A stretch of 20,967 nt of DNA from a virus. This document shows positions 7,714-14,363 of this stretch, one piece after another (position 1 is the first letter of the stretch; the number at the start of each line of letters is the position of its first letter). The stretch covers positions 1-20,967 of the IMG/VR virus record IMGVR_UViG_3300011116_000761; one strand, 5' to 3'. Made by a program: the position numbers and the translations under genes. The notes beneath the pieces were generated by a model. The model did no database searches and was not told the origin of the DNA. It was given only the letters and a program-made list of their open reading frames with translations.

Positions 7714-8847
7714 ATGGCCAAGCAAACCTTCACCAGTGGACAGGTGCTCACCGCACAGCAGATGAACGATCTGCAAACCAACGACTTCAACATGTCGGTC
7801 TCCACACAAACCGCCAACTACACACTCGTCGCAGCCGACAAAGGCACACGAGAAGTGATGAACATGTCAACCGCAGGAACCGTCACCGTACCGAACAGCA
7901 CGTTCAATGCAGGTGATGCGGTGTGGTTGCATTCGATTGGATCAGGCACCATCACCATCTCAGCTGGTGCTGGTTTGACTCTCAACTCTTCAGCAGGTAC
8001 AGCACCGACATTGGCGCAATGGGAGGGCGGAGTCGTTTATTTCACCAGTGCGTCAGCAGCAATCTTTTTTCGCGGTGGCTCACGCAACACTCTAAACGTC
8101 GAGTTCCTGCTGGTCGGTGGCGGTGGTGCTGGCGGATACAACTTTGGAGGTGGCGGTGGCGGTGGCGGATTCGTCACGGGTTCAGGCATCATCGGCAAGA
8201 CCACCTACACAGTGAAGGTCGGTGCTGGCGGTGCGGCGGCACGAGCTCGTTATGTTCCGTCTGGTACTGCTTCATCATTTATTGGGTCATCTAATGGTGG
8301 TGGCGGCTCAGGAACAGATGACCAGAAGCAGGGTGCAAATGGTGGTTCGGGCGGTGGCGGTGGAAATGCGGCTAGCACAGGTGGAACAGGAATAAGCGGA
8401 GAAGGCAACAACGGTGGTTCTGGTTCTGGTGCTGGTGCTGGCGGTGGCGGTGGCGGTGCTGGCGGTGTTGGCTCTAACGGCTCTGGAACTACGGGCGGCA
8501 ATGGCGGTGCGGCATCAACAAACAACTACACAGGTACTACCATCTCGTATTCGGGTGGCGGTGGTGGAGGTGGTTCAACAGGCGGCACAGGTGGGACAAA
8601 TGCTGGAAACGGAAATCCAACAACGGCAACAGCAGGCGTAGCAAATCGTGGTGGTGGTGGCGGCGGTGCTGGCGCAGGTGGCGCAACCGATGGTGGCAAT
8701 GGCGGTTCGGGTCGTGTTGTCGTGCGGTGGCTCACTGCCAATGCTGCGGGACTCTCAATTAGCGTCACCGGAACAACAACCAATGGCACCGACGGTTCCT
8801 ACACTTGGTATGCCTGGGATTCGACCGGAACATTGGTGGTGGCGTAA
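7714..8847 (+). CDS. Glycine-rich minor tail / adhesin-like receptor-binding protein
   Basis: A 377-aa protein. The N-terminus (FTSGQVLTAQQMNDLQTN) is a short motif that recurs at the start of phage tail fibre proteins and probably attaches to the tail tip. Residues about 30-120 are beta-rich (STAGTVTVPNS, GTITISAGAGLTLN), resembling a small fibre-base domain. Residues about 134-330 are a glycine-rich domain that begins EFLLVGGGGAGG and includes YTVKVGAGGAA and SGRVVVRW, the pattern of polyglycine-II sandwich adhesins in other phages. Between the Gly runs are short variable loops that would contact the receptor. The last 40 residues form another strand-rich cap. It is probably the host-recognition protein. 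The ending overlaps the next gene by TAATG. Confidence 0.7.
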   Translation: MAKQTFTSGQVLTAQQMNDLQTNDFNMSVSTQTANYTLVAADKGTREVMNMSTAGTVTVPNSTFNAGDAVWLHSIGSGTITISAGAGLTLNSSAGTAPTLAQWEGGVVYFTSASAAIFFRGGSRNTLNVEFLLVGGGGAGGYNFGGGGGGGGFVTGSGIIGKTTYTVKVGAGGAAARARYVPSGTASSFIGSSNGGGGSGTDDQKQGANGGSGGGGGNAASTGGTGISGEGNNGGSGSGAGAGGGGGGAGGVGSNGSGTTGGNGGAASTNNYTGTTISYSGGGGGGGSTGGTGGTNAGNGNPTTATAGVANRGGGGGGAGAGGATDGGNGGSGRVVVRWLTANAAGLSISVTGTTTNGTDGSYTWYAWDSTGTLVVA

Positions 8848-9098
8848 TGGCACATTTCGCATTAGTAGATGACACGAACACGGTGCGTGAAGTGATTGTG
8901 ATTGGCAACGATGATTGTGGTGGTGGAGAGTTCCCCGAATCGGAACCAATCGGTCAAGCGTTCATTGCGTCCATCGGTCTGACTGGCACATGGTTGCAAA
9001 CGAGTTATCACGCTAACTTCAGGTCCAAGTATGCGGGCATCGGCGACGTCTATGTTGCCGAGTCTGACGAGTTCGTTTTGCCGACAACTGAGGCGTGA
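8847..9098 (+). CDS. Small phage virion-type protein (GTWLQTSYHxNFRxxYAGIG family)
   Basis: An 83-aa protein; ATG 8847 is chosen because it overlaps the previous stop (TAATG). A longer frame back to 8805 lies inside the previous gene. The sequence begins MAHFALVDDTNTVREVIVIGNDD and contains GTWLQTSYHANFRSKYAGIGDVY. I recognise this pattern ('M-A-H-F-A ... V-x-x-V-I-V-x-x-N-D' and 'T-W-x-Q-T-S-Y-N-x-x-F-R-x-x-Y-A-G-I-G') as a widespread small protein of aquatic phages, usually encoded close to tail fibre genes. Its function is unknown to me; it is probably a structural or fibre-associated component. Its stop overlaps the GTG start of the next gene. Confidence 0.7.
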   Translation: MAHFALVDDTNTVREVIVIGNDDCGGGEFPESEPIGQAFIASIGLTGTWLQTSYHANFRSKYAGIGDVYVAESDEFVLPTTEA

Positions 9099-10468
9099 AG
9101 CGTGCGCTGATTGCGCTCCCCGCCATACTCTTTGCGTTCTGGCCATACCAAGCGCAAGCAGAACCGTTGCCTGGACTCAATGCCGTCGGCTACACCTACC
9201 AGCCGACTGGGATACCAACTCGAAGTGACGACCTCTACCCGACATGCGGATCGGAGATAGAGAACAACATCAACCGCAACTACAACGGTGAACCATTCCA
9301 ATCATGCGGATGGGACTTCTTCATGATTCATTACTCCGGGTACATCACCATCCCCGAACACGACACAATCCGATTCATGGTCGCAGCCGATGATGGTGGC
9401 ACCATCAACATCGCCGGAACAGAGTTCGGCACATGGAACCTCAAAGGCTGCTCATGGTCTCAACAAGTCGCCCTCAACGTCCAACCCGGCTCACAACCGT
9501 TGGATGGCTGGTTCTTCGAGTGGGGTGGCGGAGCGTGCTACATGCTCGCCTGGAACATCGACGAAACAGGTTGGGCCATCGTCCCCGACGAAGCGTTCAC
9601 CCGCAACGAGGTTGCCTCACCGACCACGACCACCGAACCTGAGACCACCACAACCGAAGCCTCGACCACCACGACCGAGCCAGTCACCACCACAACTGAG
9701 GCCGTCACCACGACGATTGAACAGACGACGACTACAACCACCACTGTCTATGTCACCCCGGCAACAACGACATCCACCACTGTCTATGTCGAACCAACAA
9801 CTACCACGACAACCACGACTGAGCCACCAACCACCACCACCGAATCCACGACCACAACAACTCAGCCGGAGGAAACAACTACGACGACGCAGGCTCCTGA
9901 TCCAGTTCCCGTGACGACTCTGCCAGACGAGCCTGAGCTTCCTCAATCAACAACCACCGAACCAGCACCCACAACCACAACACTCCCGGAGCCAATAGAA
10001 GAGCCACAGCCAGAAGAAGAACCACAACCTGAAACGGCACTCTCCGAAGAACAGGTTGACGCAGCCATAGAAACCCTGCTCAAAGACGTCGCCGATCTCC
10101 CAGCCGAAGAGATTGTCGCAGCTGTCGCAACCGTCCTGGCTGCCCAACCCACCTCCGAGCAGGCAACCCAACTTGCCACCAGCGCCGAAGTGTTGGCGGT
10201 CATCACCGAGGAACAGGCTGAAGCAATCTTTGAGACCATCAGCGTCGAGGACTTGACGGCTGCTGATGGTGAAGCCATCGTCGAGGCAGTCCAAGACGCA
10301 CCCAAGAAAGTACGCAAAGCGTTCGAGGCGGCCATCAACGTGTTCACCGGACTGTTTGATTCCTATGTGATGATTGGCTCAACAATCCCGGTCAGCGAAC
10401 GAAGGACATTGGTTGCCGTGTCTTCTACACTTGTTGCCGTCGGCACCAGCCTGCGTAGACGGAATTAG
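9095..10468 (+). CDS. Secreted PA14-like, Thr-rich surface protein with hydrophobic C-terminus
   Basis: A 457-aa protein with a GTG start overlapping the previous TGA. Residues 1-22 are a signal peptide (basic MKR, hydrophobic core, AQA cleavage site). Residues about 25-165 resemble a PA14 beta domain: HYSGYITIPEHDTIRFMVAA followed by DDGG and INIAG, the calcium-binding 'D-D-G' turn, with four or more Cys (51, 71, 119, 148) that could form disulfides. Residues about 174-300 are Thr/Glu/Pro repeats like linkers in actinobacterial wall proteins. Residues about 315-420 are acidic Ala-rich helices. The end (RRTLVAVSSTLVAVG then RRRN) looks like a weak membrane anchor. It could be exported to the host envelope during infection or be a virion carbohydrate-binding protein. 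Both the role and the location are inferred. Confidence 0.65.
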   Translation: MKRALIALPAILFAFWPYQAQAEPLPGLNAVGYTYQPTGIPTRSDDLYPTCGSEIENNINRNYNGEPFQSCGWDFFMIHYSGYITIPEHDTIRFMVAADDGGTINIAGTEFGTWNLKGCSWSQQVALNVQPGSQPLDGWFFEWGGGACYMLAWNIDETGWAIVPDEAFTRNEVASPTTTTEPETTTTEASTTTTEPVTTTTEAVTTTIEQTTTTTTTVYVTPATTTSTTVYVEPTTTTTTTTEPPTTTTESTTTTTQPEETTTTTQAPDPVPVTTLPDEPELPQSTTTEPAPTTTTLPEPIEEPQPEEEPQPETALSEEQVDAAIETLLKDVADLPAEEIVAAVATVLAAQPTSEQATQLATSAEVLAVITEEQAEAIFETISVEDLTAADGEAIVEAVQDAPKKVRKAFEAAINVFTGLFDSYVMIGSTIPVSERRTLVAVSSTLVAVGTSLRRRN

Positions 10469-10470
10469 CA

Positions 10471-10647
10471 ATGTTCAAGAAAATCGGGCATGAAATACTT
10501 GCGCTCGGCTTCACCCTCGGCGCATCAGCCATCACCATCATGACCCTCTCTGGACCCATCCAGAACTGGGCGCTGTTCTTCACATTCCTGTCACTCGCAC
10601 TACACTTGGCAGGAACAGCAACACAGGGAGACGGAGATGACAACTGA
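10471..10647 (+). CDS. Small two-TM membrane protein (holin candidate)
   Basis: A 58-aa ORF starting 2 bp after the preceding stop and overlapping the next gene by 11 bp. It has two hydrophobic segments, roughly residues 9-27 (ILALGFTLGASAITIMTLSG) and 33-51 (WALFFTFLSLALHLAGTA), a basic N-terminus (FKK) and an acidic C-terminus (GDGDDN). This is the layout of a short class II-type holin and it sits two genes before the endolysin. An antiholin or an unrelated membrane peptide is equally possible. It is absent from usual gene calls because of its size. Confidence 0.55.
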   Translation: MFKKIGHEILALGFTLGASAITIMTLSGPIQNWALFFTFLSLALHLAGTATQGDGDDN

Positions 10648-10900
10648 CATGGGAATCAAACAGAATGCAACCATCGCACGCTTCCTCGACCTAGGTCAAC
10701 GACTCTTCTCGCTATTCCTCGCACGAGCACTCCCAGCCGTCACCGGCGGAGCAGTCATCGGCGTCTCCGTCAGCAAGGCAGCAATCTTGGCTGGTGCAAT
10801 GGCCGTCCTCGAAGTCGTCCAGAAGCTCGCCTCGGCATCGACCGACGGTGAATTGACCAGCGACGAAATCAAAGAAGCGTTCAGCAACGGCAAGAAGTAA
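10637..10900 (+). CDS. Membrane protein, holin-like
   Basis: An 87-aa protein with GGAGACGGAG immediately before ATG 10637. After an amphipathic N-terminus (ATIARFLDLGQRLFSLFLARA) there is a small-residue hydrophobic stretch (PAVTGGAVIGVSVSKAAILAGAMAVLEVV, about residues 33-61), then a soluble tail STDGELTSDEIKEAFSNGKK. The 'D-G-x-L-T-x-D-E-I-x-x-A-F' tail recurs in holin-like proteins of tailed phages. It directly precedes the endolysin gene, sharing TAATG, so it is the best holin candidate in the window. Confidence 0.6.
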   Translation: MTTDMGIKQNATIARFLDLGQRLFSLFLARALPAVTGGAVIGVSVSKAAILAGAMAVLEVVQKLASASTDGELTSDEIKEAFSNGKK

Positions 10901-11460
10901 TGGCTCGTCAACTTCCGATCGTCAAGGTTGTCTTCCCTTCCGACCTGAAGGGATGCAAACCCGGCGAGATTCCAGCCAACCTGCTTCGTGCAATCGAAGG
11001 CAAAGGCAAACTGCATCACCTCGCTGCCGACTGCTACGAGGCCATGGATGCGGCTGCCAACGCAGAAGGCATCGACCTCTCACCAACCTCACAGGCTGAC
11101 ACTTATCGCAGTTTGGAAACTCAGGAGTATGGCTTCTATCAGCGATACACCGACACCCCGAACAAGAAACAGATGAAGCAAAAGCCCAAGGTGTACAAAG
11201 GCAAAGCCTGGTATCTCAAGTCGCCGAAACTGGCGCCGATGGCGGTACCGGGTACCTCTATGCATAATTACGGGCTGGCCATTGACATTGCTAATGCATC
11301 CGGCAAGAGGCTTGACTGGCTGCTCGCCAATGCTCAACGCTTCGGATTTTCTTGGGAGCTACAGAGCGAGCCATGGCACCTGCGCATGGTGTGCGGTGAC
11401 CAAGTGCCGGATGCTGTGAAGGAATGGCTCGCCAACAAACCAGCAGAAGACAATGCTTGA
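10900..11460 (+). CDS. Endolysin: M15 (VanY-type) D,D/L,D-carboxypeptidase
   Basis: A 186-aa enzyme predicted to cut the peptide side chains of peptidoglycan. The M15 signature is complete: SMHNYGLAIDI (H122 and D129, two zinc ligands) and SEPWHLRM (E157 catalytic, H160 third zinc ligand), with FGFSWE between them. The N-terminal half (TYRSLETQEYGFYQRYTD) carries the 'Y-R-S-x-x-x-Q' substrate-side motif of the family. No signal peptide and no separate cell-wall-binding domain is visible, so release depends on a holin; two candidates lie directly upstream. The stop overlaps the next start by 8 bp. The stretch encoding the catalytic core (about 11215-11400) uses codons (CTG, GCG, AGG, CAT, AAT) that differ from its surroundings. 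Confidence 0.85.
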   Translation: MARQLPIVKVVFPSDLKGCKPGEIPANLLRAIEGKGKLHHLAADCYEAMDAAANAEGIDLSPTSQADTYRSLETQEYGFYQRYTDTPNKKQMKQKPKVYKGKAWYLKSPKLAPMAVPGTSMHNYGLAIDIANASGKRLDWLLANAQRFGFSWELQSEPWHLRMVCGDQVPDAVKEWLANKPAEDNA

Positions 11461-11713
11461 CCAAGGCTGGGCGCTCCTCCTCACCGCAGTAGTGGCTGGT
11501 GTTGCCTCGATCATCGTGGCCGTCATCCAGCAGTTTCGCCGGGAGAATCACGCCGACCATGCCAAGGTGATGGACGCACTCAACCGGGTATCCAACACAA
11601 TGGAACGAGTCGAGGGTAAGGTGGATTCACACATTGAATGGCACCTAACAGGAGGGACCACGAATGGGAGAGTTCCTAGACGCAGTAAAACAGGAAGCCG
11701 CAAAGCGTCCTAA
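11453..11713 (+). CDS. DUF2746-like membrane protein with coiled coil
   Basis: An 86-aa protein with one N-terminal TM helix (about residues 6-25, WALLLTAVVAGVASIIVAVI), followed by QQFRRENHADHAKVMDALNR and VEGKVDSHIEWH, a short coiled coil. The 'F-R-R-E-N-x-x-D-H' and 'V-x-x-K-x-D-x-H-x-x-W-H' signature matches a family common next to actinophage endolysins (DUF2746 as I recall it), sometimes listed as holin or lysis accessory. The start overlaps the end of the endolysin gene. The C-terminus is basic (RVPRRSKTGSRK) and its last 50 bp overlap the following gene. Confidence 0.65.
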   Translation: MLDQGWALLLTAVVAGVASIIVAVIQQFRRENHADHAKVMDALNRVSNTMERVEGKVDSHIEWHLTGGTTNGRVPRRSKTGSRKAS

Positions 11714-14083: not shown

Positions 14084-14363
14084 CTGGACGAACGAAGACA
14101 ACGTCTTCGTCGGCAGACACCCAGTCTGGTATCGCTACGCAGCCTGCTACGGCAAATCAGGCGACCTGTTCTTTGAGGAAGGTGTGCGACGTCTCGTCAT
14201 TGAAGCCAAGTCGTATTGCATCAAATGCCCGGTACGCATCGACTGCCTTGAACATGCCATAAAGCATGAGGAGGTTGGTGTGTGGGGCGGGTTGACGACG
14301 ACGGAACGTAGGCGTGAGGCTCGTCGTAGGATAAGACTTCGTGGCACATCCAAACAAACGTAA
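14061..14363 (+). CDS. WhiB-family iron-sulfur transcriptional regulator
   Basis: A 100-aa protein, GTG start within the end of the preceding gene. The four cluster-binding cysteines are present: C29 (AACYGKSGDLFF), then C53 and C56 (SYCIKC) and C62 (RIDCLEHA), the CxxC-x5-C spacing of WhiB proteins, followed by the G-V-W-G-G turn (73-77) and a basic tail (ERRREARRRIRLRG) for DNA contact. WhiB proteins bind [4Fe-4S] and the host sigma factor SigA and are restricted to actinobacteria and their phages, so this is the strongest indicator of host phylum. It probably redirects host or phage transcription or interferes with a host WhiB. Its last 23 bp overlap the resolvase gene. Confidence 0.9.
   Translation: MTDEPIANWTNEDNVFVGRHPVWYRYAACYGKSGDLFFEEGVRRLVIEAKSYCIKCPVRIDCLEHAIKHEEVGVWGGLTTTERRREARRRIRLRGTSKQT

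Follow-up and report, generated by a model that had tools for sequence, protein, structure and literature searches.

What use could a phage have for a secreted, lectin-like protein whose gene lies between its tail genes and its lysis genes? The question is raised by an open reading frame at positions 9095-10468 (+ strand; GTG start, 457 aa), referred to here as the surface gene, in a window of 20,967 bases that comprises an entire IMG/VR virus record (IMGVR_UViG_3300011116_000761). An earlier note, made from the letters alone, had described the product as an exported and envelope-anchored carbohydrate-binding protein of actinobacterial type. The reading frame is as described there, and the general description, transferred to a phage of actinobacteria, is borne out by the statistics on Sec signal peptides, by a PA14 fold with its aspartate pair and by a WhiB gene in the same window.

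The WhiB-family regulator domain is encoded at 14127-14315 (+ strand; PF02467, E=1.6e-20), and 24 of 31 related contigs also encode such a domain. The hosts should therefore be actinobacterial. For the exonuclease of the window, the closest sequences come from DSL-LC01, a metagenome-assembled Actinomycetia phage, and from a Streptomyces phage. The carriers appear to be viruses of uncultured aquatic actinobacteria. Rfam and tRNA searches over the window gave no matches. In the region of about 7-9 kb, GC skew and AT skew both reverse their sign, while the larger assigned genes are all located on the + strand; the change may mark an origin or a switch in the direction of replication.

The first 22 residues of the surface protein (9095-9160, + strand) constitute a predicted Sec (type I) signal peptide, MKRALIALPAILFAFWPYQAQA followed by E. 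It begins with basic residues, continues into a hydrophobic core and ends at an AxA site. Cleavage is predicted after AQA, and in the alignment of relatives the corresponding site reads AxA followed by D or E. Export was scored by a crude Sec rule, which is a rule of thumb. The rule recognised the surface protein and none of the 14 other larger window genes tested. Among 135 non-redundant family members, 117 were recognised, the misses being mostly truncated contigs, compared to 12 out of the 515 remaining ORFs in these loci that reach 200 aa or more. Judged by these counts, the signal peptide that had been proposed for the protein is above chance expectation. Two other ways of anchoring were considered and rejected. 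A lipoprotein is out, as a lipobox cysteine is missing and the cleavage site is AQA followed by E, and sortase anchoring is out, as the sequence has no LPXTG motif.

Residues 23-172 (9161-9610, + strand) form the head of the protein, for which a PA14-like domain with a D-D-G turn had been suggested. A profile search and a predicted structure had been named as checks on this assignment, and both came out in its favor. The Pfam profile PF07691 matched the surface protein with E=6.7e-5 and 23.2-24.0 bits, and the head domain alone with 24.8 bits, which is at the Pfam cut-off of 24; 32 of 46 relatives were detected at E<=1e-3. The AlphaFold2 model of the head, calculated with the 46 relatives as input, is all-beta (pLDDT 94.1, pTM 0.89) and represents a PA14 beta-sandwich. 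In Foldseek comparisons, the PA14 domain of RsgI3 and sugar-bound MpPA14 were the top matches (E=4e-8 for 6qe7, E=8e-8 for MpPA14), followed by Epa and Flo adhesins. On the basis of this model, the PA14 fold is well supported. The turn is located at D99-D100-G101, with both aspartates invariant in 46 of 46 relatives. D99-D100 aligns with the DDG of MpPA14 and RsgI3 and provides the two consecutive Asp residues characteristic of DcisD-type PA14 domains. Four cysteines (51, 71, 119, 148) are likewise invariant in all 46 PA14 heads and therefore fit an exported domain. In MpPA14, the Ca2+ through which sugar is bound is coordinated by the Asp-pair motif (PMC8092209). By this likeness, the head is a putative calcium-dependent lectin.

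The head is followed by a stalk, residues 173-318 (9611-10048, + strand), consisting of 44% T and 74% T+P+E, in line with the Thr/Glu/Pro linker recognised before. Its length differs between aligned relatives. The remaining residues, 319-457 (10049-10468, + strand), represent a conserved C-terminal module, which was defined by AlphaFold2, by a scan of IMG/VR and by comparison to BFVD. The module is modelled as all-helical (pLDDT 88.5), which agrees with the Ala-rich acidic helices noticed earlier. It carries the conserved motif YVPxGSxIPVxxRR and ends in a hydrophobic segment and an RRR tail. The hydrophobic and basic C-terminus of the earlier description is thus present, and the tail carries a net positive charge in all but three of 193 members (190), but hydrophobicity is marginal for a lone membrane span (mean best 17-residue Kyte-Doolittle value of 1.44 over the 193 members). 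The stretch is modelled as a helix at low confidence (pLDDT 54-66). The module matched no PDB fold at E<0.001. PDB sequence matches to protein A were considered to be noise from helical composition, and Pfam matches of the helical part to GatB, glycosyltransferase-3N and similar families to be helix-bundle noise. In BFVD, only phage proteins matched the module at E<=0.001, two of which carry the names 'PA14 domain containing protein' and 'Fibronectin type III', respectively.

Directly downstream, at 10471-10647 (+ strand), a gene was detected that is absent from the list of the earlier note. It specifies a membrane protein of 58 aa, in which two hydrophobic helices flank a conserved TLSG motif. 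Copies from two other loci belong to the phrog_29041 family (L019, E=6e-29; L086, E=5e-12), of which the window copy is probably a distant member (E=0.068). The arrangement of the two genes is almost constant. The two-helix gene follows the surface gene directly in 113 out of 114 loci with enough sequence, and at 89 loci the genes overlap by 1 or 4 nt. The only exception, L023, has kept the two-helix gene, which is split off from the surface gene by an inserted gene. The insert (L023:5317-5757) is HNH-endonuclease-like. A reciprocal scan starting from the two-helix protein found the surface protein directly upstream at 70 of 73 evaluable loci. At L133, L134 and L136, the two-helix gene and the lysis cassette are kept, and other genes occupy the slot of the surface protein. 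In phage DSL-LC01, the two-helix protein is fused onto the end of the module (residues 891-935 versus phrog_29041, E=1.8e-5). Constant adjacency and the fusion in DSL-LC01 are good evidence, at the level of sequence, that the two-helix protein is the physical partner of the C-terminal module in the membrane. Such a partner makes sense, since the C-terminal segment by itself is only marginally hydrophobic.

Upstream of the pair, genes were found for a tape measure protein, a protein of 417 aa, a Gly-rich tail protein and a small protein of the phrog_7759 family. The latter gene (8847-9098, + strand) directly precedes the surface gene and overlaps its start by 4 nt (GTGA). Among relatives that are almost identical elsewhere, the Gly-rich tail protein (7714-8847; Gly_rich_2, phrog_2295) differs strongly, which would be expected of a part that binds receptors. 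A correlated exchange of heads and tail fibre genes was considered and proved too inconsistent to be claimed.

Downstream of the pair, the genes overlap or touch each other. The first one (10637-10900, + strand; phrog_26427) specifies a small membrane protein of 87 aa, which looks like a holin because of its hydrophobic core and the adjoining endolysin gene; the label 'nuclease' attached to phrog_26427 is probably wrong for this protein. The endolysin is probably the VanY/M15 peptidase encoded at 10900-11460 (+ strand; Pfam VanY, E=1.9e-13). It is followed by a gene for a protein of 86 aa (11453-11713, + strand), for which a role in lysis is suggested by its family, phrog_32850, and by its neighbors. 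The protein has a single N-terminal membrane span and a coiled-coil-like tail, and its match to DpdH was judged to be a chance coiled-coil match. Given the membrane protein and the VanY endolysin downstream, the surface gene belongs to the region where tail genes give way to lysis genes. Of the direct coupling to tail fibre genes that had been proposed, the 4-nt overlap on the upstream side stands, but the steadier neighbors are the two-helix gene and the lysis cassette downstream. From its position in a tail/lysis operon, the surface gene is presumably expressed late.

Comparisons among loci revealed that the head is exchanged on a conserved scaffold. In the loci fetched, the C-terminal module is combined with the PA14 type of the window, with a second PA14 subclass (L126, L161), with a DVUA0089-like domain (L131; NF038127, E=4e-5) or with a beta domain that has no assignment (signature LGEWTYSQS). 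One locus, L148, contains the module without an obvious head. The DVUA0089-like and other non-PA14 heads may not be lectins. Two close relatives of the window illustrate the exchange. In L026, the head is 62% identical to that of the window, compared to 91% for the signal peptide, 94% for the C-terminus, 97% for the two-helix partner and 93% for the exonuclease. In L050, a locus with an open 5' end, the head belongs to the other PA14 subclass and is 27% identical, with the C-terminus at 85%, the partner at 95% and the exonuclease at 91%. Over 465 locus pairs, head identity tracked that of the other parts least (rho of 0.25-0.38 versus 0.44-0.58 among the others), these correlations being descriptive because locus pairs are not independent. 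Where C-termini were at least 80% alike (50 pairs), heads were at most 65% alike in 14 pairs.

We propose that the two genes at 9095-10468 and 10471-10647 form a surface display unit of the infected cell. The large protein would be exported through Sec, the Thr-rich stalk would carry the head across the cell wall, and the hydrophobic basic end of the helical module would, together with the two-helix protein, provide the anchor in the cytoplasmic membrane. To judge from gene order, production would take place late, just before lysis. It is likely that the surface protein functions in this manner, as a phage-made, Sec-exported and wall-spanning lectin displayed by the infected cell, and the effect of the unit, shortly before the cell bursts, is probably to make this cell sticky or to mask its surface. 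In the first case, an exchangeable lectin on display could mediate flocculin-like adhesion of the infected cell to neighbors with matching glycans, and the phage might profit because its progeny would find hosts close by. Such cell-cell capture, suggested by analogy, appears to be the most likely use of the unit, with a chance of somewhat less than even. It is favored because of the flocculin plan of the protein, its late position and the parallel to the curli cluster of phage HTVC008M.

In the second case, the lectin would bind glycans of the cell that made it and thereby mask receptors, which would block superinfection and keep progeny off the parent cell and its debris. Diverse heads on a constant scaffold would fit the matching of variable receptor glycans, the surface gene adjoins tail fibre genes, and a guard against superinfection has also been proposed for pelagiphage curli (PMC9599517). 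However, exclusion proteins are usually made early, whereas the surface gene is found in a tail/lysis operon, and glycans of the own wall could be reached without a long stalk crossing it. Moreover, PADLOC defence profiles matched neither the surface protein nor its two-helix partner, so that neither resembles exclusion or defence proteins known from this comparison. Receptor masking is therefore considered possible but rather unlikely.

The surroundings of the pair could also indicate a part in lysis itself. Together with the holin-like protein and VanY, the pair might tether the membrane to the wall or time lysis. The small membrane protein is encoded within 1.2 kb downstream at 78 of 93 loci and VanY within 2.5 kb at 72 of 93, and the genes overlap. 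Yet the pair also occurs without an adjoining endolysin gene, at L032, L034, L096, L108 and L111 as well as in DSL-LC01, so that the pair stands as an independent unit and not as a lysis gene, and exchangeable lectin heads would be unexpected in a lysis part. A lysis component is improbable on these grounds.

Still less probable is a structural protein of the virion, that is, a minor tail or decoration protein with a glycan-binding domain. Tape measure and Gly-rich tail genes are located upstream, and carbohydrate-binding domains are common on virions, but nearly all relatives possess a signal peptide, the cysteines are invariant, and the membrane partner is near-constant and even fused in DSL-LC01. 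The whole surface protein had no match in PHROG at E<=0.1, and a known tail fibre family was discarded as its identity for lack of a PHROG tail match.

To determine the distribution of the family, viral and cellular sequences were searched. The head scan revealed 40 related viral loci, their products sharing the plan of signal peptide, PA14, Thr-rich stalk and conserved C-terminus, while the scan with the C-terminal module yielded at least 559 loci in IMG/VR. Bacterial and archaeal genomes, 84,980 in number, were scanned with peptide patterns, once for the whole family and once for the C-terminal module. Pattern matches were obtained but no relative was confirmed, with the reservation that short exact peptide matches were required, so that distant host relatives could escape. 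The module was not detected in plasmids. A gene taken from the host, as had been offered as an alternative, and still specifying an ordinary host surface protein would agree with the Thr-rich stalks typical of actinobacterial surface proteins, but it is the least probable explanation, and recent capture is rejected, given a module at 559 or more viral loci and no relative of head or module that scans as sensitive as these could recover from the genomes.

PA14 lectins and surface proteins made by phages are known kinds. We could not find a description of a display module that is specific to phages, comes with a two-helix partner and accepts different heads, and none of the module family was found in open-licence papers. 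Since BFVD entries match the module, members have been deposited, though not described as a family in the open literature. Among 50,697 annotated phage records in INPHARED, only DSL-LC01 contains both module and partner. Whether the constant module and the two-helix protein, combined with interchangeable heads and used before lysis, represent a display system specific to phages and not derived from a known host anchor is almost an even call, with a slight leaning against. If it is right, hundreds of these phages give their host a new coat of a selected lectin ahead of lysis. An infected actinobacterial cell would then be a lectin-coated trap or shield shortly before it lyses. Module and partner are easily recognised and offer a handle on the function of many genes now labelled hypothetical, and from the heads one may learn which glycans a phage encounters.

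Several known systems share parts of this arrangement. The ice adhesin of Marinomonas primoryensis, with its domain MpPA14, and RTX adhesins resemble the surface protein in fold, in the DDG turn and in proposed Ca2+-dependent sugar binding, but the ice adhesin is a giant Gram-negative protein of type I secretion without such a stalk or anchor. Protein WJZ48438 of DSL-LC01, annotated only as a hypothetical protein, shares the C-terminal module, contains Thr-rich linkers and includes the two-helix protein as a fused part; it differs in its other, larger head and in the absence of an adjoining endolysin.

A second phage-encoded protein with a signal peptide and a related PA14 domain is AGE60352 of Pelagibacter phage HTVC008M, whose PA14 domain shares 35% identity with the window head along 56% of the latter's length (E=9e-4). 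Here, curlin repeats follow, CsgF and CsgG are encoded next to it, the host is Gram-negative, and neither the C-terminal module nor a two-helix partner is present. AGE60352 (L043:3737-5062) is listed as a hypothetical protein of the curli cluster; judging from its signal peptide, its match to PA14 (E=2.7e-6) and its curlin repeats (E=5e-8), it could be a curli subunit that carries a lectin at the tip. The main text of PMC9599517 does not mention PA14 in this cluster. For the HTVC008M cluster, cell aggregation and 'sibling capture' have been proposed (PMC7029224). If the display unit described here works as suggested, it would join pelagiphage curli as a second, independent example of how phages perhaps control contacts between cells in dilute water.

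In overall plan, the surface protein is most reminiscent of the yeast adhesins Flo1, Flo5 and Epa1, which also consist of a signal peptide, an N-terminal PA14 domain with the DD motif, a Ser/Thr-rich stalk and a C-terminal membrane attachment. Unlike these eukaryotic, GPI-anchored proteins, the phage protein has no GPI anchor signal at its C-terminus, which is the helical module with its basic tail, and it relies on this module and the two-helix partner instead. By analogy, the surface protein thus appears to work like a flocculin without being a member of the flocculin family.
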